A stretch of DNA of 26,489 bases, from the IMG/VR virus record IMGVR_UViG_3300021961_000538, positions 1 through 26,489 of that record. One strand, written 5' to 3'. The notes below the pieces were generated by a model that was given only the letters and a program-made list of their open reading frames with translations, had not been told where the DNA came from and did no database searches. The position numbers and the translations under genes are program-made. Positions 4,869-25,559 of this stretch are shown here, in pieces. Source of the stretch: a virus. Each line of letters starts with the position of its first letter. The stretch's first letter is position 1.

Positions 4869-5366
4869 ATGAGCAACGTAAACCTCTCAGCATTTGGTGG
4901 TGTCGGTTGGCAGTTTTTCGACAACAACGGTGTGCCGTTGGCCGGTGGGTTGATCTACACCTACGCGGCAGGCACCACGACACCGCAGGCCACCTACACG
5001 ACCAGTGCGGGAACAATAGCGCACACCAATCCGATTGTGCTGAACTCGGCAGGCCGGGTGTCTGGGGGGCAGATCTGGTTGCTGTTCGCCAGCTACAAGT
5101 TTGTCCTGCAAACTTCGGCGGCGGTGTTGATTGCGACCTACGACAATATTTCCAGCGGTGGTGGTGGTGTGCCTGTCATTTCAAACTTTACCGGCGATGG
5201 CACCACGGTCAGTTTTAACTTGGGCAACGCAACCAACGAGAACACTACAAACGTCTACATCAACGGCGTATACCAGCAAAAGAACACCTACTCGCTTAGT
5301 GGGTCAAATCTGGTGTTTTCAGCAGCGCCCCCGAATACATCTACGATTGAAGTCAGCTTTACCTAG
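4869..5366 (+). CDS. Short fiber / head-binding-domain protein
   Basis: The 165-residue protein falls into two parts. Residues about 10-65 contain FFDNNGVPLAGGLIYTY, TTTPQATYT and NPIVLNSAGR, the signature of phage tail-fiber N-terminal and P22-tailspike-like head-binding domains. After a Gly linker (SSGGGGV, about residue 97) comes a second beta domain with a TGDGTTVSFNL..NENTTNVYINGVYQQKNTY-like pattern (here cut by intervening residues) that recurs in fiber and carbohydrate-binding modules. It lacks a catalytic or long shaft domain and is short for a complete spike, so it probably acts as an adaptor or assembles with neighbouring appendage proteins. Start ATG is preceded by AAGGAAAAACC. 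GC content returns to the background level here, which marks the right boundary of the AT-rich island. Confidence 0.7.
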   Translation: MSNVNLSAFGGVGWQFFDNNGVPLAGGLIYTYAAGTTTPQATYTTSAGTIAHTNPIVLNSAGRVSGGQIWLLFASYKFVLQTSAAVLIATYDNISSGGGGVPVISNFTGDGTTVSFNLGNATNENTTNVYINGVYQQKNTYSLSGSNLVFSAAPPNTSTIEVSFT

Positions 5367-8663: not shown

Positions 8664-10732
8664 TGGCAGGCTACGATATTGAAGGCGCAAGGAAAGCCGG
8701 TTATTCCGATGAGGCGATTGCGCAGGACATGGCTGATTTCGCTAAAATTGATTACTCCGCAGCAATAAAAGGGGGGCATACAAACGAAAGCATTATCAAA
8801 AGCCTGTCCGTTAATAAAAACAAAGAAGCTGGCGCAAATGCGCCTGGTGCCGCGCAAGGATTGATTTCTGTCTTGCAAGGCCCGACCCTCGGGTTTGCTG
8901 ACGAGATTCTGGGCGGTATCGGGGGCGCTTATGACGCTTTGACAAAGGGTGGCGGTTACCTACCAAACTACAGAGCAAACAGAGATTATCTGCGCGGTGC
9001 TGCTGAATTCCAGCAAAAGCAAAATCCGGTAACTACGGGAATAACGCAAGCAATGGCATCTGCGCCGTTGAGCGTTCTGCGGCTATTTGGTGCTGCACCG
9101 CAAGCCGCAAATGCTATGGCAGTCCCGTCTGTAAATATGCTTGGTCAAGGAATGACTGCGGCTGGAACTGGGGCGCTTTTCGGAACCGTTGGTGGGGCTG
9201 GTGCATCTACTGCGGATACTCTTGGCGGCGTTGGACTTGACGCATTGAAAGGCGGCGCGTTAAGTGCTGCCATTGGGGGCGCAACTGTGCCGGTCTTGGG
9301 CATTGCGGGTGCTGTTGGTGGGAATATTGCACAACGATTTAATCCTACTCGGGCAACAACCGCAGCACAGTTGGAAATTGCTCAAGCGTTGGCTAGAGAT
9401 GCTGAAGCTAGAGGAATAGCTGGCAATCCGGTTATTGCGGCTAGATCCACATTGCCGACATTAGGCGAACCTGCGGTCATTGCCGATGTTGGTGGTGCCA
9501 GCACTCGCGGTTTGTTGGACACAATGGCAACCCTACCTGGCAGGACAAAAGAGGCCGCAGCCCAATTTATTCGTCAGCGTGAAAACGTAGGCGCAGCGCC
9601 GCGCATGATTGCTTTGGCTGAAGAATCTATGGGCGTACAGGGTCAAAGGCTTGCGCCGACATTGGAGGCATTAACGATAAAGCAAGCTGCTGATGCTGCG
9701 CCGATCTACAGGCAATTGGAAAACGTATCTTTCCGCGCAGATGATGAACTTGTAAAACTATTAGCAAGGGAACCAGCAGCACACACGGCTGCTGAAATAT
9801 CTGCTAGAAGGCTCGGAAAACCACACATAGATTTATCTTTAATAAAAGCGGGTGACGATGTTCCTCTGGCTGCTTTGGATAAAATGAAACGCACTTTGTG
9901 GTCTATGGCAGACAGTGCAAAAGAAGCAGTTACCAAAAAACCAACCGACCCAAGTCGTGACATTGACAGTATTCGTGTTGCATTAATTGATAAACTTGAC
10001 AGGCTCTCTCCTAAAGATGCCGCAGGTAATTCTATTTACAAAAAAGCTAGGGATGCCTTTGCCGATCCTGCCGAACTAAAAGATGCTGCAAACATTGGCG
10101 CAAAAGCACTATCGCAAACAGAAGCACGAATCAGCGATCAGATTAAAAACTTTAGCCAAGCAGAACTTGATGCTTTTAGGGTTGGGGCTTTTGAGTCTTT
10201 GCGGCAAGAGTTGGGGACTTCTCTTGGTGGCAGAACAAAAATAATTAATGCGTACAAAAACCCTGTAGTGGCAGAAAAACTGCAAACCATTTTTGGGAGT
10301 GAATCTGCCTATAGACGATTTGCTACAAGCATGGCAAACGAGGAACGATTTAGGCTGCTAAATGCAACAGACAAAGGATCTCAAACAGTAAGCAGAGCAG
10401 CCGCCGCTGATGATCTCGGTATGGGCGCATTACAAGACGTTGCTGGAGTTGCTTCTGGTGTTGCTGGCGGCAGTCCTGCGGGGATCGGGCAAGGCTTGCT
10501 TAATCTGTTCAACCGCACAAAAATGCCTGAAACCACCAGAAACGAATTAGGACGAATCTTGTTGACCGGAGGCCAAGAGGGTCAAAACAATCTCCGCGCC
10601 ATGATGCAAGCCGGAGAACGCATAGCAAGGCAACGGCAAGAATCGGCTCGACGCGCTGGAGTGTTTGCAACAACTCCAGTCGGGGCGGCTACTGGTGCCG
10701 CAGCCTATCAAATGGTTCCCGGTATTGAGTAA
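8663..10732 (+). CDS. Large DNA ejection protein, gp16-position
   Basis: The 689-residue protein starts at ATG 8663 with CAGGAGA six bases before it; the GTG one codon upstream is not needed. Residues 1-55 are charged and helical with a tandem pattern (AGYSDEAIAQDM, then KGGHTNESIIKSL) like small peptide repeats. Residues about 65-215 contain long Gly/Ala-rich hydrophobic stretches (LGGIGGAYDAL, LFGTVGGAGAST, AAIGGATVPVLGIAGAVGG), suited to membrane insertion. Residues 230-600 are alpha-helical and charged. A final Gly/Ala stretch ends the protein. Third of the tandem ejection set, comparable in place and size to P22 gp16, which is released into the host envelope. No lysozyme or transglycosylase motif is visible. 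The gene is moderately AT-rich, like the body of the preceding gene. Confidence 0.68.
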   Translation: MAGYDIEGARKAGYSDEAIAQDMADFAKIDYSAAIKGGHTNESIIKSLSVNKNKEAGANAPGAAQGLISVLQGPTLGFADEILGGIGGAYDALTKGGGYLPNYRANRDYLRGAAEFQQKQNPVTTGITQAMASAPLSVLRLFGAAPQAANAMAVPSVNMLGQGMTAAGTGALFGTVGGAGASTADTLGGVGLDALKGGALSAAIGGATVPVLGIAGAVGGNIAQRFNPTRATTAAQLEIAQALARDAEARGIAGNPVIAARSTLPTLGEPAVIADVGGASTRGLLDTMATLPGRTKEAAAQFIRQRENVGAAPRMIALAEESMGVQGQRLAPTLEALTIKQAADAAPIYRQLENVSFRADDELVKLLAREPAAHTAAEISARRLGKPHIDLSLIKAGDDVPLAALDKMKRTLWSMADSAKEAVTKKPTDPSRDIDSIRVALIDKLDRLSPKDAAGNSIYKKARDAFADPAELKDAANIGAKALSQTEARISDQIKNFSQAELDAFRVGAFESLRQELGTSLGGRTKIINAYKNPVVAEKLQTIFGSESAYRRFATSMANEERFRLLNATDKGSQTVSRAAAADDLGMGALQDVAGVASGVAGGSPAGIGQGLLNLFNRTKMPETTRNELGRILLTGGQEGQNNLRAMMQAGERIARQRQESARRAGVFATTPVGAATGAAAYQMVPGIE

Positions 10733-10896
10733 TGGCGACCACTAACGAACTTGACGTTCGCCTGACCTCCCATGAGGCGGTATGCGAACTGCGGTATGAA
10801 ACCATCAACGCCCGGTTAAAGAGGATTGAGCATATTGGCTTTACCGTTGCTGGGTTCATCATTGCCTTACTTATCCACCTTGTCCTGAAGGTCTAA
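10732..10896 (+). CDS. XhlA-like small membrane-anchored protein (lysis block)
   Basis: A 54-residue gene starting inside the previous stop (TAATG overlap). Residues 1-33 are charged and helical (R..TSHEAVCELRYETINARLKRIEH), predicting a short coiled coil; residues about 35-53 (IGFTVAGFIIALLIHLVLKV) form a single C-terminal membrane segment. This coiled-coil-then-membrane layout matches haemolysin XhlA-type and podoviral holin-accessory proteins. It lies directly before an exported protein, a holin-like gene and an endolysin, so a role in lysis or membrane docking is likely. The family name is an inference from topology. Confidence 0.65.
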   Translation: MATTNELDVRLTSHEAVCELRYETINARLKRIEHIGFTVAGFIIALLIHLVLKV

Positions 10897-10898
10897 AC

Positions 10899-11420
10899 AT
10901 GAAAAAGCTGCTTCTTCTCTTGCTGCTGCCGGTCAACGTGTTTGCCACAGAACTTATGATCTGCAATGGTGAATACGCCCTGTGTGCGGCTTCCGGTTCC
11001 ACGCCTACCGGCAAGAAGATCATGGTCAAGGGCAAGGAGTTTGCAGAGGGGATGGCAGTCTGCCCTGTCCTTACGGGCCGAAGCGTAGCCAACGGTGCGC
11101 TGATGAATAAGTCCTGCGATGCCCCTGCCGGGAAGGTCTGGAGCCTGTTCTCTACCGTCAGCGAAGCGCCACAAGCGCCGACATGGGCGGTTGCGCCACT
11201 TGTGAAGCGATCCTTCATACTTGGCAAAGATTCTGGCATGAGTAATCAGTGGTCGTTCATCTGCGACAAACAAGCCAAGAAAGTGAACGGTGTAACCCTA
11301 GCGTCCTGCTACGGCCCGATCAACGAATCACCCTTTACAAATGGGCATATCAAGCCGGGTACTACAATCATTACCGATGCTCCGGTTGGAGTGTTGAACC
11401 CCGTAGGTGGAAACTTCTAG
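10899..11420 (+). CDS. Exported cysteine-containing protein, function unknown
   Basis: The 173-residue protein has a classic signal peptide: MKK, then seven leucines and PVNVFA, with probable cleavage after VFA (about residue 16). The mature part has six cysteines (ICNG, LCAA, VCPV, SCDA, ICDK, SCYG), an even number consistent with three disulfides in the periplasm, and is otherwise beta-rich. It starts two bases after the previous stop, with GAAGG upstream, and precedes the holin-like and endolysin genes. No spanin lipobox or coiled coil is present, so it is not an obvious spanin. A periplasmic function such as lysis assistance, superinfection exclusion or a moron is possible; none can be demonstrated here. 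Confidence 0.72.
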   Translation: MKKLLLLLLLPVNVFATELMICNGEYALCAASGSTPTGKKIMVKGKEFAEGMAVCPVLTGRSVANGALMNKSCDAPAGKVWSLFSTVSEAPQAPTWAVAPLVKRSFILGKDSGMSNQWSFICDKQAKKVNGVTLASCYGPINESPFTNGHIKPGTTIITDAPVGVLNPVGGNF

Positions 11421-11429
11421 GAGACTATT

Positions 11430-11600
11430 ATGGGCTGGCTCAGAAAGCGTTTTGGTGAACCGTCAACTCTGGCAGGACTTGGGATTTTGTTTGCTGTTGG
11501 AATCCCGCTTGTCCCGCAGCAGTATCAACTGCTGGCGCAAGGGCTGGCGGCTGCAATGGGGCTGGGTGCGGCTGGACGGGCAGATCCCGGTAACAAGTGA
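11430..11600 (+). CDS. Holin-like small membrane protein
   Basis: The 56-residue gene has TAGGAG eight bases before its ATG. Residues about 12-28 (TLAGLGILFAVGIPLVP) and 35-49 (LLAQGLAAAMGLGAAG) are two hydrophobic stretches separated by a short polar turn (QQYQ), with a basic N-terminus (LRKRF). It ends in GTGA, overlapping the endolysin start by four bases. The size, two-segment layout and coupling to the endolysin support a class II-type holin. Assignment is by topology and context only. Confidence 0.65.
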   Translation: MGWLRKRFGEPSTLAGLGILFAVGIPLVPQQYQLLAQGLAAAMGLGAAGRADPGNK

Positions 11601-12046
11601 CCCCGCATTTCAGCCTTGCAGAACTGACCCGCACCGATCACCGGACACTCGACAACACTCCAGATCCCGCCGCACTAGCCAACTTGCACCGGCTGGCGGC
11701 GTTTCTGGAGCAAGTCCGAGAGGTGCTGGGCGGCAGGGCGGTGGTAATCAATTCTGCCTACCGCAGCAAGGCCGTCAATGATGCCGTAGGAAGCAAGGAT
11801 ACAAGCCAGCACAGGCTTGGTTGCGCCGCCGATATCCGAGTACCGGGGATGAGTCCTGACGCTGTGGTGAGGGCTGTAATGGCCTCTGGGCTGGCTTATG
11901 ACCAATTGATTAAAGAGTTTGATAGCTGGACGCACATCAGCATCCCAAACGCGCCCGATGCGTACGCTCGGAAAATGGTATTTATTATCGACAAGACCGG
12001 CACACACCTATTTCCCGTTGATCCAACTGGGCTGGCGGCGGTGTAG
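11597..12046 (+). CDS. Endolysin, M15 family peptidase
   Basis: The 149-residue protein starts at GTG overlapping the previous stop. It shows the Peptidase_M15_3 pattern: F.LAELTRTDH at the N-terminus, INSAYRSKAVNDAVGSK..SQHRLGCAADI with zinc ligands H72 and D79, and DSWTHISIP with H113; acidic E107 sits where the catalytic Glu/Asp is expected. These zinc enzymes cut peptide cross-links of peptidoglycan (D-Ala-D-Ala or L-Ala-D-Glu bonds) and serve as phage lysins. It has no signal peptide, so release to the wall should depend on the upstream holin-like gene. Its last 39 bases overlap the convergent minus-strand gene. Confidence 0.88.
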   Translation: MTPHFSLAELTRTDHRTLDNTPDPAALANLHRLAAFLEQVREVLGGRAVVINSAYRSKAVNDAVGSKDTSQHRLGCAADIRVPGMSPDAVVRAVMASGLAYDQLIKEFDSWTHISIPNAPDAYARKMVFIIDKTGTHLFPVDPTGLAAV

Positions 12047-12166
12047 GCATCCTTGGCAGCGCCAAGTCTTGATCTTTCCTCCTCGCCCCTTCGGAACCAG
12101 CTTAACTGCAACGTTCATCTGGCAAGCGCCGCATAATTTTTGACTAGGGTTAGTGTCCTTATTCAT
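12008..12166 (-). CDS. 52-residue zinc-ribbon-like protein
   Basis: ATG at 12166 is preceded by GAGGA at five bases. The protein has two Cys pairs, LCGAC (residues 12-15) and RCQGC (about 36-39), separated by a basic stretch (KLVPKGRGGKIKTW), the layout of a small zinc ribbon. The start overlaps the stop of the upstream 59-residue gene (ATGA). It is convergent with the endolysin gene and overlaps it by 39 bases, so its mRNA is antisense to the endolysin 3' end. A nucleic-acid-binding role is plausible; no named family was recognised. Confidence 0.6.
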   Translation of the reverse strand: MNKDTNPSQKLCGACQMNVAVKLVPKGRGGKIKTWRCQGCLHRRQPSWINGK

Positions 12167-12342
12167 AGTTTCCTCATCCTGAGCGCAACTCGCGCACGTT
12201 GATATCGTTTTTCTATTTGATCCGGCGTGTTGATGCCCTGCCGAATAATTGTGACTTGATCGCAACCAGCAAGGGCAAGTTTGGGCGGCGAGAGCCATGA
12301 TGGGAGAGGAATTATCTCTACAGGCACTTTTCGTTTTGTCAT
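12163..12342 (-). CDS. Small basic protein, unknown
   Basis: A 59-residue frame from ATG at 12342, ending in an ATGA overlap with the next gene. The sequence is basic (MTKRKVPVEIIPLP at the start; a C-terminal helix DQIEKRYQRARVALRMRKL). The C-terminal half is a probable amphipathic helix with one Cys at residue 27. The ribosome-binding site is poor (AT-rich leader). The gene lies just beyond a strong terminator, so it is expressed by readthrough or from its own promoter. Support comes from the tight coupling to the zinc-ribbon gene. Confidence 0.45.
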   Translation of the reverse strand: MTKRKVPVEIIPLPSWLSPPKLALAGCDQVTIIRQGINTPDQIEKRYQRARVALRMRKL

Positions 12343-12360
12343 TGTTAATCTAAAAGTTAG

Positions 12361-12394
12361 AAAAAAAAGCGGCTGACCTGTGCAAGCCAGCCGC
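12361..12394 (-). terminator. Rho-independent terminator of the left operon
   Basis: On the minus strand a perfect 7-bp stem GCGGCTG/CAGCCGC closes a 12-base loop and is followed directly by eight T's (12368-12361). It lies about 40 bases after the 26-residue peptide gene and would end the leftward early operon, leaving only the last two small genes beyond it. Confidence 0.85.
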
Positions 12395-12432
12395 CAAAAA
12401 CGCCACGGGTGATAGGAGCAGACCCCGCAACG

Positions 12433-12513
12433 TCAAATCAAAGCAATGCAAATACTGGCGACTAGGCACAGGACAAACATAGCCCAAAGCGCCCAATCGG
12501 GCCACGGTTTCAT
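12433..12513 (-). CDS. 26-residue single-span membrane peptide
   Basis: ATG at 12513 is preceded by GAGGGGAACAA, a good ribosome-binding sequence, and overlaps the stop of a 10-codon frame (ATGA). The peptide is MKPWPDW followed by about 18 hydrophobic residues (ALWAMFVLCLVASICIAL), a complete membrane span with a Trp/Pro-rich N-terminal edge. It is the last gene before the terminator. Similar micro membrane proteins in phages can be toxins, enzyme inhibitors or membrane-stress factors; no function can be assigned. Confidence 0.5.
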   Translation of the reverse strand: MKPWPDWALWAMFVLCLVASICIALI

Positions 12514-12574
12514 TTGTTCCCCTCGCGTATAGGAGCCATCATGGTTTCTCCCCTGTGGTGTGGTGGCGCTTCAT
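12510..12574 (-). other. Two chained 10-11-codon mini-frames
   Basis: After the XF1762-like gene, ATG 12574 opens an 11-residue frame (MKRHHTTGEKP) that stops at 12539; ATG 12542 opens a 10-residue frame (MMAPIREGNK) that stops at 12510; ATG 12513 opens the membrane peptide. Each stop overlaps the next start as ATGA. GGGGAG precedes the second frame. They may simply carry ribosomes across the gap by termination-reinitiation. Confidence 0.3.
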
Positions 12575-13017
12575 GGCGCCTCCCAAAGTAGTTTCTGTCC
12601 TTGCAGAATTTCTGCGGTATCAACGCGAGGGCGGCTTGGCACATTCCAATTTCCCCCCCCCCGTTCGGCAATCAGTTTCCAACCAGCTGCGCGGAGACTC
12701 GCCCCGCCCTCTGCTGGCAGCGTGTATGTCATCAGCCTGCGGTATCCCAATGCTTTGGCAACCCGCCACGCGGCCCCGTAGAGCATCGAACAGGCGTTCC
12801 TAGCCCCATCGGTACAACAGCGGTTCACTTCCAGCGTGTAGCCGTTGTCGCTGTTCCTTGCTACCGGCCTGCCGACCATTACCACACCGCGCACCTTTCC
12901 TTCAGCATCTGATACTGCGATGCAGAACTTGCACCCCGGCATCGGCTTGTGGTGACGGTGCAGGGTCGCAACAAAAGCATTGGCCTCCGCAAAGTCGATG
13001 GGCGTTACGGTCAGCAC
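12571..13017 (-). CDS. XF1762-like (GNAT-fold) phage protein
   Basis: A 148-residue protein starting at GTG, two bases after the previous stop. Motifs AFV..LHRHHKPM.GCKFCIAV, GVVMVGRPVAR, LEVNRCCTDGARNACSMLYGAA and YRRLMTYTLPAEGGASLRAAGW match the XF1762 family, found in many prophages and related by fold to GNAT acetyltransferases. The segment GASLRAAGW resembles the end of a GNAT core. The substrate is unknown. Next to recombination genes, it could modify a host or phage protein, but this is speculation. Stop TGA overlaps the first mini-frame. Confidence 0.72.
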   Translation of the reverse strand: MLTVTPIDFAEANAFVATLHRHHKPMPGCKFCIAVSDAEGKVRGVVMVGRPVARNSDNGYTLEVNRCCTDGARNACSMLYGAAWRVAKALGYRRLMTYTLPAEGGASLRAAGWKLIAERGGGNWNVPSRPRVDTAEILQGQKLLWEAP

Positions 13018-13019
13018 CC

Positions 13020-13592
13020 CTATCGCTTCCCTGCGTCAGGGCAGGCTCCGCAGGTGCAGACGTACCGCCCCTCGTTCAACGATCCCGTCCGGTTATAGCC
13101 GCATTCGACCGGCTCCCCTTTCATACGATAGCGATCCACTAAATCGTCAAACTGATAAACACCCATCAGCGCCTCGTTGTACAACGCGGCAAACTTCCTC
13201 GGGTTGAGTGTGCGGATGTACTCGTACCGGGCTGCGCGATCAAATATCTCCGCGCCGGGCAACTGCTGCGCCCAGTCAGGACGATCTGTTGCTGCCGTTG
13301 CGGATGGGGCCGCGTTCTGCATTTTGTTGATCTCGCCGTGCAAGTTGGCGATGGTTGTCCGGTGAATAATCAACTGCTCCAGCAGCGCATCACGTTCATG
13401 CTCGGCCCTTTGCGCCCGTCCTTGAAACTGCGGGAGGAGGCGTTGCTTGAGATCCGCAAGTTCGGCAACAGCAGAACACGCTCCCGGTGTCGGGCAACCT
13501 TTTGGCTCAACTGTTGCCCTGTGCTTGGCGATCAACTCTCGGTTCTCCTCTCGCTGCGTTAACCGCGCTCCTTCTTCGTCGTTATCCATCAT
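13020..13592 (-). CDS. Coiled-coil protein with C-terminal Cys cluster, unknown
   Basis: A 190-residue protein; the start is the ATG-ATG pair at 13592/13589, with GAGGAG five to eight bases upstream, overlapping the previous gene by 11 bases. Residues about 40-100 form a long helix with heptad-like spacing (ELADLKQRLLPQFQGRAQRA, then RDALLEQLI..), consistent with a coiled coil. Residues about 120-165 (FDRAARYEYIRTL..RKFAALY) form a second helical domain. The C-terminus holds CGYN..YVCTCGACP, four cysteines that could bind zinc. No known family was recognised. Confidence 0.65.
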   Translation of the reverse strand: MMDNDEEGARLTQREENRELIAKHRATVEPKGCPTPGACSAVAELADLKQRLLPQFQGRAQRAEHERDALLEQLIIHRTTIANLHGEINKMQNAAPSATAATDRPDWAQQLPGAEIFDRAARYEYIRTLNPRKFAALYNEALMGVYQFDDLVDRYRMKGEPVECGYNRTGSLNEGRYVCTCGACPDAGKR

Positions 13593-13812
13593 TCTTCTCC
13601 TCATCACCAATCTTCACAGACTCCAAAAACTCCGCCAACAAATAGACACAGGGCAATATCAAGTCGCGGCAGATCGCATCGTGTACATCGGACTCCGTTT
13701 TGCCTACGATCTGCGCGTAGATTTTAAGCGCCCCGAGTCGCTCGCTCACCAACATATCAAGGTGGTCGAAGTCGAGTCGTTTCACTTTTTCAATGTTTTC
13801 GTATTCCATCAT
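13582..13812 (-). CDS. 76-residue helical protein, unknown
   Basis: The start is ATG 13812, which overlaps the stop of the upstream 50-residue gene (ATGA); a longer frame from 13848 lies inside that gene and is not used. The protein is acidic to neutral and helical (MMEYENIEKVKRLDFDHLDM, LVSERLGALKIYAQIVGKTE), with one Cys pair near the middle (ICRDLILPCVYLL). Its length and operon position resemble small phage early proteins. It ends inside the next gene's start region. Confidence 0.6.
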   Translation of the reverse strand: MMEYENIEKVKRLDFDHLDMLVSERLGALKIYAQIVGKTESDVHDAICRDLILPCVYLLAEFLESVKIGDEEKNDG

Positions 13813-13961
13813 TTCTTCGCGCCTTTCTTTAGCACCTTGGGCGTCCATGTAAACACATCGGGCAGGGCTTCCTTAAGTTTAGGCACTCGGTTCTGCGGGT
13901 GCAGCACCCACCGGGTGTCGAGCCATTCAATGGCGGCTTGCAGTTTTTCTGCTTGTGTCAT
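13809..13961 (-). CDS. 50-residue small protein, unknown
   Basis: ATG 13961 is preceded by GGAGGCAAA, an excellent ribosome-binding sequence. The protein begins MTQAEKLQAAIEWLDTRWVL, a helix, followed by a Pro/Lys-rich tail ending LKKGAKK. Both ends overlap neighbours as ATGA, so the four genes between 14095 and 13020 are translated as a coupled string. No family was recognised. Confidence 0.6.
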   Translation of the reverse strand: MTQAEKLQAAIEWLDTRWVLHPQNRVPKLKEALPDVFTWTPKVLKKGAKK

Positions 13962-21555: not shown

Positions 21556-21842
21556 CCAACGAGCAGAAACGCTTCCAGAACGCTGTACGAGCGGCTGGCT
21601 GCATCGTTTGCCACGGTGAAGGGGTAGAGAGTCCCTGCGAGATTCATCACCTCCTGCGCGGCGGCAGACGCATTGGCGAGGATTTTGTGCTTGGACTGTG
21701 CCAGATCCATCACCGGGGGCTAATAAATACGGCAGAAGCGGTTAGTCGGCATCCCTGGCGGCGGGAATTTGAGGCTCGGTACGGGACTGAGATGGAATTA
21801 CTGGAAAAGACGAGGGAGCTATGCGGCGAGCTGCCAGAGTAG
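21552..21842 (+). CDS. Ref-like (RecA-dependent) HNH nuclease
   Basis: 96 residues from GTG 21552 (GTGA overlap). Cys/His residues fit a zinc-bound HNH nuclease: C17/C20, C29, H32-H33, C50 and H53-H54, with PCEIHHL, LGLCQIHHRG and REFEARYGTEMELLE, the signature of the Ref (recombination-enhancement) family known from phage P1. Such enzymes cut DNA bound by RecA. It overlaps the next gene by 22 bases. Confidence 0.72.
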   Translation: MTNEQKRFQNAVRAAGCIVCHGEGVESPCEIHHLLRGGRRIGEDFVLGLCQIHHRGLINTAEAVSRHPWRREFEARYGTEMELLEKTRELCGELPE

Positions 21843-22102
21843 ACGGGAATCAGTCTCAACTGGCGGCTGCATTCCGATCTTTGGGGTGCAGCGTCCTGTC
21901 TCTGGCCCCTTTGGGCGGAGGAGTGCCTGACCTGCTGGTGGCCATAAACGGTATCACATGGCTGGTTGAGGTCAAAATGCCGAACGGGAAGGAAAACGAA
22001 ATGCAGGTCGAATTCGCCATCACGTGGAAGGGTTGCCGAGCAGTTGTTCGGGATCTGCAAGGGGTCGAATTAACCGTGAAAACGATGAAATTCATGGCTT
22101 GA
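21821..22102 (+). CDS. VRR-NUC domain nuclease
   Basis: A 93-residue protein: VDGNQSQLAAAFRSLGCSVL, GGGVPDLLVAING with D37, WLVEVKMPNGKENE with E50 and K52, then FAITWKGCRAVV. The PD-(D/E)xK order matches the minimal VRR-NUC family, often phage-encoded and thought to act on structured DNA such as Holliday junctions. ATG 21821 is preceded by GAGGGAGCT. Last gene of the replication/recombination transcript, before a 181-base gap with a terminator. Confidence 0.78.
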   Translation: MRRAARVDGNQSQLAAAFRSLGCSVLSLAPLGGGVPDLLVAINGITWLVEVKMPNGKENEMQVEFAITWKGCRAVVRDLQGVELTVKTMKFMA

Positions 22103-22213
22103 CATCTATTTTTCAGAAGAATACGCTCAGAAAATGACCGCAACCCCTATTTGCGCGACTCCCCTCGCGTCTGCCCACCGCGCTGGAAAACTCCCCTTCC
22201 CGACGCGCTGTGT

Positions 22214-22260
22214 CCGGGGACTGCTGCCCGTGGGCGCAGCTATAGCCCCCGGATTCTTTT
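22214..22260 (+). terminator. Terminator-like hairpin before the packaging genes
   Basis: Outer stem CCGGGG/CCCCGG (22214-22219 with 22247-22252) and inner stem CTGC.GCCC/GGGCGCAG (22221-22239), followed by ATTCTTTT. It lies between the VRR-NUC and DUF6321 genes, so it likely separates early from late transcription. Outside this hairpin, the 22103-22283 gap shows only a weak promoter-like pair. Confidence 0.65.
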
Positions 22261-22283: not shown

Positions 22284-22577
22284 ATGACCGCCGCTTGGAC
22301 GCGTAAGGAAGGCAAAAACCTTGCCGGTGGCCTCAACGCCAAAGGCCGCGCCTCTTACAAAGCCGAAACCGGCGGAACCCTCAAGCCTCCGGTCAAGTCG
22401 GGCGACAATCCACGCCGAGCCTCTTTCCTCGCTAGAATGGGCAATATGCCGGGGCCAGAGAAAAAGCCAAACGGCGAACCAACCCGTCTTGCGCTGTCCC
22501 TCAAGGCATGGGGCGCAAGCTCCAAGGCTGATGCTAAGTCCAAGGCTGCGGCAATTTCGACAAGAAACAAGAAATGA
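22284..22577 (+). CDS. DUF6321 small basic protein
   Basis: 97 residues from ATG 22284 (TTGAGGCAACA upstream). The whole sequence matches a widely conserved phage/bacterial small protein (TRKEGKNLAGGLNAKGRASY, PPVKSGDNPRRASFLARMGN, PGPEKKPNGEPTRLALSLKA, WGASSKADAKSKAA), recalled as DUF6321. It is basic, lacks membrane segments and has no assigned function; frequent placement near terminase genes suggests a packaging or virion role. Its stop is immediately followed by the parS-like site. Confidence 0.75.
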   Translation: MTAAWTRKEGKNLAGGLNAKGRASYKAETGGTLKPPVKSGDNPRRASFLARMGNMPGPEKKPNGEPTRLALSLKAWGASSKADAKSKAAAISTRNKK

Positions 22578-22593
22578 TGTTCCACGTGAAACG
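22578..22593 (+). promoter_or_regulatory. parS-like palindrome upstream of a ParB-domain gene
   Basis: TGTTCCACGTGAAACG matches the bacterial parS consensus TGTTNCACGTGAAACA at every position except the last. It begins on the base after the DUF6321 stop and ends nine bases before the ParB-methyltransferase TTG start. It could be bound by the host chromosome-partition protein ParB. Confidence 0.6.
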
Positions 22594-22602
22594 GGACAGC
22601 AA

Positions 22603-23850
22603 TTGAAGATTGAACAGGTAAAGCTAGATGCGCTGATTCCTTACGCCAGGAACAGCCGCACCCATTCCGATGCTCAAGTGGCCCAGATCGCCGCCAGCAT
22701 CAAGGAATTCGGTTTCACCAATCCCGTCCTGATCGACGAGACCGGCAGCATTATTGCCGGCCACGGACGCGTCATGGCAGCGCGGAAGTTAGCGATTGCT
22801 GACGTTCCCAGTATTCGGCTCACCCATCTAACCGAGGCGCAAAAGAAAGCCTACGTTATCGCAGACAACAAACTGGCCCTGAATGCGGGTTGGGATGACG
22901 AGATGCTGGCGGTCGAACTCACCGACTTGAAGGACATGGGCTTCGACCTCGACTTGTCCGGCTTTAGCACCGACGAGATCGAGGCGTTGTTGGCTCCAAC
23001 AGGGACGGAGGGGCTGACAGACGAGGACGCTGTACCGGACGTGCCTGAAGCCCCTGTGACCGTTCTGGGCGACGTTTGGCTGATGGGCAAGCATCGGGTG
23101 ATGTGTGGCGACTCGACCAGCATTGATGCGGTTGAGAAGCTTTTAGACGGACAAGAGCCAAACACGATGGTCACAGACCCGCCGTATGGCGTGAATCTTG
23201 ATCAATCTTGGCGGGACAAGGCGCTGGGCAGCAAGGCGCTCGGCAAAGGCAACAATCAACTAGTCGAGAATGATGACCGGGCAGATTGGTATGATGTTTG
23301 GGCGCTTTTTCGCGGCAATGTGGCTTATGTGTGGCATGCGTCGGCGTTTACTGATGTGGTTATGGACTCGCTACGCCGCGCAGACTTCGAGGTTAAGCAG
23401 CAGATTATCTGGAACAAGAGCGTGATGGTGATGGGCCGCTCGGACTATCACTTCAAGCATGAGCCGTGCTGGTACGCAATCCGGAAGAACAAAAATCACA
23501 ACTGGGTTGGCGACCGGAAGCAAACAACGATATGGGACGCTGCGCCGCCGAATCACATCATGGGCGGAAGCAATGAAGAGAAAACCTCCCATCCGACACA
23601 GAAGCCAGCAGCGCTGTACGAGAGGGCGTATCTTAACCATACAAACATGGGTGAGTACATTTATGAGCCATTCGGCGGGTCGGGGACTGCGGTAATTGTT
23701 TGCGAGAAAACTGGACGCCGATCTTTGACTATGGAACTAGACCCCAAATACTGCGATGTAATCGTCCAGAGGTGGCAGGAATTCACAGGACAGACAGCAA
23801 CGCTGGAATCAAATGGTAAGCCGTTCATTTCGTTGAAGAAAGCTGCGTGA
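22603..23850 (+). CDS. ParB-domain / beta-class DNA methyltransferase
   Basis: 415 residues from TTG 22603 (no ATG fits; the upstream ribosome-binding sequence is weak). Residues 1-75 are a ParB/Sulfiredoxin-type domain (DALIPYARNSRTHS, QIAASIKEFGF.NPVLID, GHGRVMAARKL at 53-62, the nucleotide-binding loop). No helix-turn-helix like that of true ParB is evident. The methyltransferase follows, with DPPY (192-195), SHPTQKP (329-335) and FGGSGT (357-362); motif IV before motif I is the beta order, giving N6-adenine or N4-cytosine methylation. It may protect phage DNA from host restriction or regulate packaging. It follows the parS-like site and precedes the terminase. Confidence 0.88.
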   Translation: MKIEQVKLDALIPYARNSRTHSDAQVAQIAASIKEFGFTNPVLIDETGSIIAGHGRVMAARKLAIADVPSIRLTHLTEAQKKAYVIADNKLALNAGWDDEMLAVELTDLKDMGFDLDLSGFSTDEIEALLAPTGTEGLTDEDAVPDVPEAPVTVLGDVWLMGKHRVMCGDSTSIDAVEKLLDGQEPNTMVTDPPYGVNLDQSWRDKALGSKALGKGNNQLVENDDRADWYDVWALFRGNVAYVWHASAFTDVVMDSLRRADFEVKQQIIWNKSVMVMGRSDYHFKHEPCWYAIRKNKNHNWVGDRKQTTIWDAAPPNHIMGGSNEEKTSHPTQKPAALYERAYLNHTNMGEYIYEPFGGSGTAVIVCEKTGRRSLTMELDPKYCDVIVQRWQEFTGQTATLESNGKPFISLKKAA

Positions 23851-23869: not shown

Positions 23870-24217
23870 ATGTCATTTATCAAACCTCACAGACCGACCG
23901 ATAAAACAAGGCAACAAGCACAGAGTGCTTCAGGACTCGGCTTGCCTCAAGATCAGATTGCCGCGCTGATTGGCATTGCTCCTGAGACGCTCCGCAAGCA
24001 CTACGACCTCGAGCTAGGTTTGGGCAAGGCTCAAGCCTCGGCAGCGGTGGCGAAAACCCTGTTCAATAAAGCTACCGTAGGCCAGGACACCACGGCAATG
24101 ATCTGGTGGACCAAAGCCCAGATGCGCTGGTCTGAGACCGTCCGGCAGGAGCTGACCGGCAAGGATGGCGGCGGAATAGTGATCCAAATCAACAACGAAG
24201 ACAGCAACCTTGTTTAA
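23870..24217 (+). CDS. Terminase small subunit-like protein
   Basis: A 115-residue protein with a helix-turn-helix near the N-terminus: GLPQDQIAALIGIAPETLRK, then HYDLELGLGKAQASAAVAKT, LFNKATVGQDTTAMIWWTKA and an end ending NNEDSNLV. This is the common layout of phage small terminases that recognise the packaging site. It overlaps the large terminase start by eight bases. The ribosome-binding site is weak (AAAAAG). Confidence 0.78.
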   Translation: MSFIKPHRPTDKTRQQAQSASGLGLPQDQIAALIGIAPETLRKHYDLELGLGKAQASAAVAKTLFNKATVGQDTTAMIWWTKAQMRWSETVRQELTGKDGGGIVIQINNEDSNLV

Positions 24218-25559
24218 CGCCACAGCAGCCCAAAGCAGGGCCACAGGGCTGATGACCGGCGATGCCAAGCACGTCATGCTGGTTGGTGGATCAAGGTCAG
24301 GCAAGACCTTTGTGGCGCTCCGAGCACTGATTATCCGAGCGACTCTGGCACCCAAGAGCAGGCACGTTGTCTTGCGGTTTCGGTTCAACCACGTCAAATC
24401 CTCGGTCATTCTCGACACCTTTCCGAAGGTGATGGCGCTTTGCTTCCCGCAACTCACCTACGTTATCGACAAGACCGACTGGTACGCAACCCTGCCAAAC
24501 GGTTCCCAGATCTGGTTCGGCGGGCTGGACGACAAAGACAGGACTGAGAAGATTCTCGGGCAGGAATACGCCACGATCTTCTTCAACGAATGCAGCCAGA
24601 TCCCCTTGTCGGCCCGAAACATGGCCGTCACACGCCTCGCGCAGAACTGCGTGGCAGTAGTGGGCAACCAGCAACGACAGATGCGCCTGAAGGCGTTTTA
24701 CGACTGTAACCCTCCTTCTATGGCCCATTGGACGTACAAGATGTTCGTCCGAAAGATCGAACCTGAGTCGGGCAAAGCCCTGGCTGACCTGCTCAACTTC
24801 TCAATGATGACCATCAATCCTCGAGACAACCTCGAGAACCTCCCGCCCGATTACATCAAGGAACTGGAGAACCTTCCGGCTCGGATGCGCTTGCGGTTCT
24901 TGGAAGGCAAGTTCGCTGACATAGCCGCTGGTGCTCTTTGGAACGTCGAAATGATCGACACCCACCGCGAAACCTCTGGGCTTCCCGATATGCTGCGGGT
25001 GGTAGTGGCAGTCGATCCATCCGGCAGCGGGGACACCGACAACGCCGGGAACGACGAGATCGGAATCATTGTCGCCGGTCTGGGCATTGACGGTCGTGCC
25101 TACGTCCTCGAGGACTGCACAATGAAGGCTGGTCCAAGCGTCTGGGCCAACGTCGTTGCGACCGCCTACGACCGCCACGCAGCCGATTTGGTCGTTGCCG
25201 AGAAAAATTATGGTGGTGAAATGGTCCGGCATGTGATAAAAAGCGCAAATCCGTACCTGAAATGCGAGTTAATCAACGCAAGCAGAGGTAAAGCGGTGAG
25301 AGCGGAACCCGTTTCGGCATTGACTGAACAGGGCAAGATCCGGTTCGGCGGCACGTTCCCCGAGCTTGAGGACGAACTTTGCTCCATGACGACAAACGGG
25401 TACACGGGCGAACGCAGCCCGAACCGCGCCGATGCCTTCGTCTGGGCCATGACCAAACTGTTCCCCGGCATCATCAAGACCGATGCTAAAGCGCAGCGCA
25501 AGCACGTTATGCCAACCCAAAACATCAATCGCGGTGCAACCTCTTGGATGGGTGCTTAA
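24210..25559 (+). CDS. Terminase large subunit
   Basis: 449 residues from TTG 24210. The ATPase domain has Walker A GGSRSGKT (26-33), Walker B IFFNE (123-127) and a coupling motif DCNPPS (165-170). The nuclease domain has VVVAVDPSGSG (D269), VVAEKNYGG (E331) and PNRADAFVWA (D408) as probable metal-binding acids. It packages DNA into proheads by ATP hydrolysis and cuts the concatemer. It is co-directional with the small subunit upstream and small basic genes plus the portal downstream, the standard packaging module. Length is normal for the family. Confidence 0.93.
   Translation: MFNATAAQSRATGLMTGDAKHVMLVGGSRSGKTFVALRALIIRATLAPKSRHVVLRFRFNHVKSSVILDTFPKVMALCFPQLTYVIDKTDWYATLPNGSQIWFGGLDDKDRTEKILGQEYATIFFNECSQIPLSARNMAVTRLAQNCVAVVGNQQRQMRLKAFYDCNPPSMAHWTYKMFVRKIEPESGKALADLLNFSMMTINPRDNLENLPPDYIKELENLPARMRLRFLEGKFADIAAGALWNVEMIDTHRETSGLPDMLRVVVAVDPSGSGDTDNAGNDEIGIIVAGLGIDGRAYVLEDCTMKAGPSVWANVVATAYDRHAADLVVAEKNYGGEMVRHVIKSANPYLKCELINASRGKAVRAEPVSALTEQGKIRFGGTFPELEDELCSMTTNGYTGERSPNRADAFVWAMTKLFPGIIKTDAKAQRKHVMPTQNINRGATSWMGA

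Follow-up and report, generated by a model that had tools for sequence, protein, structure and literature searches.

A chromosomal-type parS sequence at the edge of a phage modification locus, with a putative role in loading host ParB

Background

Canonical ParB reads parS through its helix-turn-helix (HTH), and the canonical chromosomal parS is the 16-mer TGTTCCACGTGAAACA (the Bacillus form). The HTH of canonical ParB is also given as the parS reader in PMC12704722, which describes phage ParB-CTPase/N6_N4 methyltransferase fusions and, in the parts covered (a limit that holds for all papers cited here by PMC number), makes no link between these fusions and parS. For ParB of Burkholderia cenocepacia chromosome 1 (ParBc1), symmetric changes in the site abolish binding unless they fall at positions 1-16 or 5-12; chromosomal sites found in nature have one distal change together with one transition at position 5 or 12 (PMC5450999). 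Among mobile elements, SGI1 has parS-like sites that hijack the IncC ParB (PMC10954446), while on plasmid RK2 a ParB-family clamp, KorB, loaded at the specific operator OB controls transcription (PMC11790492). Moreover, cyanophage Mic1 has its own ParAB and a different palindrome (PMC7156551), a phage ParB without ParA has been reported (PMC10286716), and ParB-methylases may have further activities, e.g. the nonspecific nicking reported for Bce_0392 (PMC5512222). We recognised no report of a chromosomal-type parS in a ParB-less phage in the parts covered of the open full-text literature, including PMC10197239 and PMC11849849 (unrelated), and the function of the ParB domain in these common phage proteins is not settled in the literature covered.

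We report here on a site that belongs to the same 16-bp class as chromosomal parS (ParABS of the Bacillus and Burkholderia c1 type), changed only at tolerated positions, but which is single, has no parA or HTH parB found with it and lies inside a coupled mini-ORF. As with SGI1, a mobile element carries candidate sites for the ParB of another replicon; however, SGI1 mimics a plasmid parS and gains stability, whereas the phage site is of the chromosomal type and tied to the gene of a ParB-fold enzyme (PMC10954446). RK2 in turn encodes its own reader, KorB (PMC11790492), while no reader was found in the phage record. We give an even chance to the explanation that we prefer, in which selection keeps a functional parS of the chromosomal type at the 5' edge of the modification locus, as a putative loading site for host ParB that would control or mark this locus.

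Results and discussion

Gene order around the site

The window, i.e. the whole stretch of DNA analysed, is the 26,489-base IMG/VR virus record IMGVR_UViG_3300021961_000538, possibly a genome fragment. Its gene content is P22/lambda-like according to family and PHROG profile matches: a Mom-like protein, a RecE-type exonuclease, Erf, a primosomal protein, an HNH endonuclease, NinB, Ref-like, resolvase-like and DUF6321 proteins, a ParB-domain methyltransferase, the small and large terminase subunits, a phage stabilisation protein, tail fibre and spike, and an ejection protein (for coordinates near the site see Table 1). The Mom-like protein (12571-13017, minus strand, phrog_1384) represents a second modification function on the record. 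No Rfam match at the gathering threshold was obtained in the window, and promoter and terminator scans around the site gave nothing exceeding shuffles. A GC-rich hairpin upstream of the DUF6321 gene (22212-22253) folds no better than shuffles; a sequence resembling it sits directly before the ParB gene of one relative (L324).

Table 1 Features of the window around the parS-type site
Feature	Position	Strand	Basis
Nuclease or Holliday-junction-resolvase-like gene bordering the slot upstream	21821..22102	+	phrog_93, phrog_5702
DUF6321 protein, 97 aa	22284..22577	+	PF19846, 84.4 bits
parS-type site TGTTCCACGTGAAACG	22578..22593	.	same place in 12 distinct loci
Coupled mini-ORF MFHVKRDSN* (predicted)	22577..22606	+	frame open in 10/10 carriers compared
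ParB/Srx (ParB-CTPase-type) domain, residues 1-125, constant part of the gene	22603..22977	+	profile matches
ParB-domain N6/N4 DNA methyltransferase, 415 aa	22603..23850	+	phrog_498, E 8.3e-150
Terminase small subunit, following gene in the slot	23870..24217	+	phrog_309
Terminase large subunit	24210..25559	+	Terminase_6N, Terminase_6C

The 16-mer is a parS sequence

An initial annotation of the window had pointed to a parS-like 16-mer differing from the canonical site only at its last base, and both points stand: TGTTCCACGTGAAACG has one mismatch (G16) to TGTTCCACGTGAAACA, contains the exact core GTTYCACGTGRAAC and has two mismatches (C5 and G16) to TGTTTCACGTGAAACA, so that the 16-mer is a parS sequence by its core and its departures. 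It falls within the 16-bp near-palindrome class TGTTYCACGTGRAACA with the exact core GTTYCACGTGRAAC and with G at position 16. Position by position, C5 and G16 lie in the only two pairs at which changes are tolerated by ParBc1 (PMC5450999). Chromosomal parS sites form a cluster near parAB and oriC, whereas the phage site is single and the record has no match to ParA (PF01656) or HTH_ParB.

The chance of about one in a thousand estimated earlier was close: under a first-order Markov model, 7.8e-4 sites with at most one mismatch to TGTTCCACGTGAAACA are expected on both strands, and the exact core GTTYCACGTGRAAC is expected 5.2e-4 times per window. At the loose threshold of at most three mismatches to TGTTTCACGTGAAACA, TGTTCCACGTGAAACG is the sole site of the window, while 11 of 100 shuffled windows have at least one. 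The exact core occurs 18 times in six bacterial genomes (~22 Mb); 17 of these occurrences are grouped, with 2-4 sites in a single cluster per genome that is presumably the chromosomal parS cluster, and the remaining one lies on a phage-like contig (L240).

Conservation among relatives

Relatives were collected by protein similarity from virus contigs and bacterial genomes (best 80 of the candidates listed per search), giving 239 loci (2.18 Mb). Sites with at most one mismatch were found in 11 of them, always 22-25 nt before a ParB-domain gene; these loci occupy nine contigs (L320 is on the contig of L062, and L321 on that of L056), one haplotype is common to L056, L058, L060, L061 and L062, and L002 is almost identical to the window. 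At two or three mismatches there are 29 further sites, of which only that of L026 is directly before a ParB-domain gene. With two pattern scans included, there are 12 distinct site-bearing loci: ten counted after identical contexts had been merged, as for the distinct site-less loci and the gene-pair counts below, plus L651 and L652. The pattern-scan loci were found through CACGTGRAAC, and core invariance among them is partly by construction. In six carriers (the window, picked for its site, and five loci found by protein), the divergence at fourfold-degenerate sites of the ParB domain is 36-63%, yet variation in the core is limited to its Y and R positions.

That the site is a neutral passenger or a chance likeness could draw on its optional presence in the clade, on evident recombination and on common ancestry, which explains part of the sharing. 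This is hardly credible given the window expectation (5e-4), a core unchanged (Y/R aside) at such fourfold divergence and a slot in which, L026 excepted, no decayed site of two or three mismatches was seen; chance likeness was rejected on expectation and conservation. The site is very probably real and under selection, as judged from these comparisons.

The site is optional in the clade, since 14 distinct loci with a ParB domain at least 86% identical lack it, and their slots contain no site with at most three mismatches. Conservation in relatives with the same gene pair, proposed earlier as a check, was seen in 6 of 9 distinct loci with DUF6321 just upstream, or in 3 of 6 when the loci found by site search are left aside. 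When 10 carriers and 14 non-carriers are placed on one tree with five outgroups, presence and absence of the site need six changes, a weak test in which 26 of 500 label shuffles need as few; the carriers form one clade in 0/200 bootstrap trees, and the strongly supported branches alone leave one origin possible. Recombination is evident among the relatives, and the site keeps its place despite differing upstream contexts and differing downstream enzymes. The contig with the bacterial core occurrence (L240) belongs to a metagenome-assembled genome (MAG) named Rhodoferax; 298 of the 299 genomes of its family lack the site-plus-start pattern, which is present only in that MAG.

The gene joint and its mini-ORF

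A 25-base gap between the DUF6321 stop and the start of the ParB-domain gene had been described, and its borders hold (stop at 22575-22577, TTG start at 22603-22605), but the mini-ORF filling it had been missed. Its ATG at 22577 overlaps the DUF6321 stop and its TGA at 22604-22606 overlaps the TTG start, and this predicted frame keeps the DUF6321 and ParB-domain genes coupled. Other carriers encode MFHVKRDHH, MFHVEQCK or MFHVERCK, and in L026 and L208 the site is crossed by an open frame from upstream (AFHVKRGFN*). In three site-less relatives with DUF6321 (L008, L013 and L016; the L008 alignment stops 14 nt short and its joint was read by eye) the DUF6321 stop overlaps the ParB gene start directly, so the site looks like a frame-keeping insert of 22-25 nt. 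DUF6321 was not detected upstream in L217, L235 and L240, where a leader containing TATAAT lies ahead of the site; the consensus promoter scan made no call in the leader of L217.

There is a slim chance that the likeness to parS is a by-product and that conservation concerns an RNA hairpin or the coupled leader peptide (FHVK/FHVE). The frame is open in all ten carriers, as a selected peptide would have it, yet if the peptide alone were selected, the constancy seen at synonymous positions in the H, V and K/E codons would have a joint chance of ~0.012 on six loci and 0.005 on ten. Strong folding of the L217 and L235 leaders (z -4.4 and -3.2, respectively) speaks for a hairpin, which is still conceivable in these two. 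In the window, where the leader does not exceed shuffles in folding (z +1.07) and the C5/A12 form breaks the stem, a hairpin was rejected. Moreover, the positions that vary are just those varying in chromosomal parS, which argues against peptide and hairpin alike. In the folded leaders around the sites of L217 (3480-3620) and L235 (4960-5100), the outer arm is paired with codons near the start of the ParB gene.

A constant ParB domain before interchangeable enzymes

The ParB/Srx domain annotated at the N-terminus of the window protein was recovered through ParB-like PHROGs and matches to solved Noc and ParB chains, the latter over residues 5-80 only; the ParB_N score (21.5 bits) is below the cut-off of 26.3. 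The N6_N4_Mtase family matches residues 188-388 (68.7 bits). The protein is one of the fusions described in PMC12704722 (phrog_498), i.e. a phage ParB-domain N6/N4 methyltransferase with a ParB/Srx fold and an amino-methyltransferase domain, with Pfam ParB_N below its cut-off. In the AlphaFold model (mean pLDDT 83, pTM 0.63) a ParB-type fold and a few helices are followed by the methyltransferase; all 50 PDB matches listed by Foldseek are methyltransferases, so the ParB fold rests on profile, PHROG and model evidence. Matches that cover 80% or more of the protein occur in 298 of 50,697 phage records, and the best full-length matches in isolate phages are ~55% identical.

In eight carriers, identity to the window over the first 125 residues is 88-98%. 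The part behind them varies: N6/N4 methyltransferases with differing cores (the window, L128, L224, L208, L222 and the minus strand of L235), a 165-residue ParB-only protein and then a C5 methyltransferase (L217 and L240), a 179-residue ParB protein and then an ABC/GNAT-like protein (L220), a 197-residue ParB protein and then an open frame without assignment (plus strand of L235), or a 189-residue frame with the methyltransferase reading continuing in another frame (L216/L230). Judged from these sequences, site and ParB domain are a constant module before interchangeable modification enzymes, a feature that had escaped the initial annotation. The 9.9-kb contig L235 has two copies of site plus ParB domain in opposite directions (sites at 5046-5061 and 9844-9859) with different genes behind them.

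Candidate readers of the site

HTH_ParB was found in none of the 11 carrier virus records, all possibly fragments, and the ParA-type family PF01656 was not found in the window record; a phage-encoded reader was thus rejected for the available records. Likewise, phage ParA plus an HTH ParB, as in a self-contained ParABS of the P1 or N15 type, was not found (HTH_ParB in 0/11 carrier virus records, PF01656 in 0/1, the window); if the records are fragments, stretches absent from them may encode a ParB of the phage. The MAG holding the carrier contig L240 has one HTH_ParB match. Compared with a parS hijacker, the candidate site is present and an HTH ParB was not found in the carrier virus records; finding no site-reading ParB of their own suggests that host ParB is borrowed, and host ParB is probably, and most plausibly, the reader.

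It is improbable that the site is an autoregulatory operator or a loading site for the phage ParB-domain protein itself or for another factor of the phage. Site and ParB domain do stay paired while the enzymes change, but the window protein matches no HTH family (as the initial annotation had seen), its ParB/Noc match spans only the CTPase fold, the 14 site-less relatives have nearly the same ParB domain, and the sequence of the site is that known for chromosomal ParB.

Local control or segregation

If host ParB is the reader, the bacterium's own ParB would bind the site and be loaded next to the modification gene as a CTP clamp. As long as phage copies are scarce, these clamps may restrain read-through into the genes for modification and packaging, to be released once replication has raised the number of parS sites and thinned out ParB; in addition or instead, they may mark phage DNA as the place where the ParB-fold enzyme is to act. 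That the use of the site is mainly local in this way seems to us an evenly balanced proposition. By analogy, local control could resemble that by KorB, a ParB-family clamp that represses transcription (PMC11790492).

Support for a functional, host-read parS comes from the low window expectation, the placement in relatives, the constancy of the core, the tolerated departures and the missing HTH_ParB; against it stand the comparably similar relatives without a site, the lack of any promoter-like match above shuffles and the single MAG with the arrangement in its family (1/299). The initial interpretation holds as to parS sequence and conservation and less so in other respects, the site being optional in relatives and simple titration of host ParB being a weak idea with one site of at most three mismatches in the window record.

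Alternatively, host ParB and ParA may hold or partition unintegrated phage genomes through parS, e.g. in a P22-like carrier state, adjacency to the ParB gene being linkage; we consider this rather unlikely. The carrier state is reportedly treated in two P22 studies, on which this idea leans, and the window does have P22-like gene content. Segregation nevertheless remains a strong rival, since the closest precedent, SGI1, uses its parS-like sites for its own stability (PMC10954446); one site per genome would suffice, and parS in other virus contigs sits elsewhere. Integrated or lytic genomes, on the other hand, need no parS, and L235 has two sites. A local role is moderately favoured over segregation because the good sites of the fetched stretches are confined to the position before the ParB gene, and L235 has this pair of site and gene in two copies.

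Should host ParB be loaded as proposed, parS hijacking would extend from plasmid-exploiting islands to phages exploiting the segregation protein of the chromosome. The parS kept beside a ParB domain offers a bench handle on whether this domain cooperates with host ParB clamps.

parS-type sites in other virus contigs

Among the sites listed for virus contigs, with identical contexts merged, T..A flanks were found around 89/142 symmetric cores, 63/135 asymmetric cores and 21/99 copies of a control palindrome, and more than one site is present on 16/116, 6/120 and 0/120 of the respective contigs listed. A crude test for open frames of at least 100 aa, with contexts merged in the same way, gave a mixed picture (33/52 T..A-flanked sites versus 61/73 others; 11/11 in L189). 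In 50 virus contigs with the full asymmetric 16-mer, HTH_ParB was over the cut-off in none (one weak match lay below it), hence contigs labelled as viral seem commonly to have parS but no recognised ParB, although some of them may be mislabelled or partial. ParB_N was found in 1/50, leaving unsupported a general rule that viral parS adjoins ParB-fold genes; as these sites are not near such genes, the neighbourhood seen in the window may be linkage. A wider and doubtful extension is that phages use the host centromere code as an address, with a ParB-fold adaptor bringing interchangeable enzymes to the clamp-marked genome, and that many ParB-less phages exploit host ParB via host-type parS.

The 116.7-kb contig L189 (IMGVR_UViG_3300037518_000322) carries twelve perfect 16-mer parS sites within 5 kb (8906-13863), several of them in short gaps before genes. 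Neither HTH_ParB nor ParB_N is over the cut-off in this contig, and its only BLAST relative is 102 bases of a Streptomyces phage (77.5%). Finally, at least three to five parS-type sites each are present in the virus contigs L439 (2658-3443), L484 (10536-11461), L428 (5526-12168) and L196 (2053-3789).
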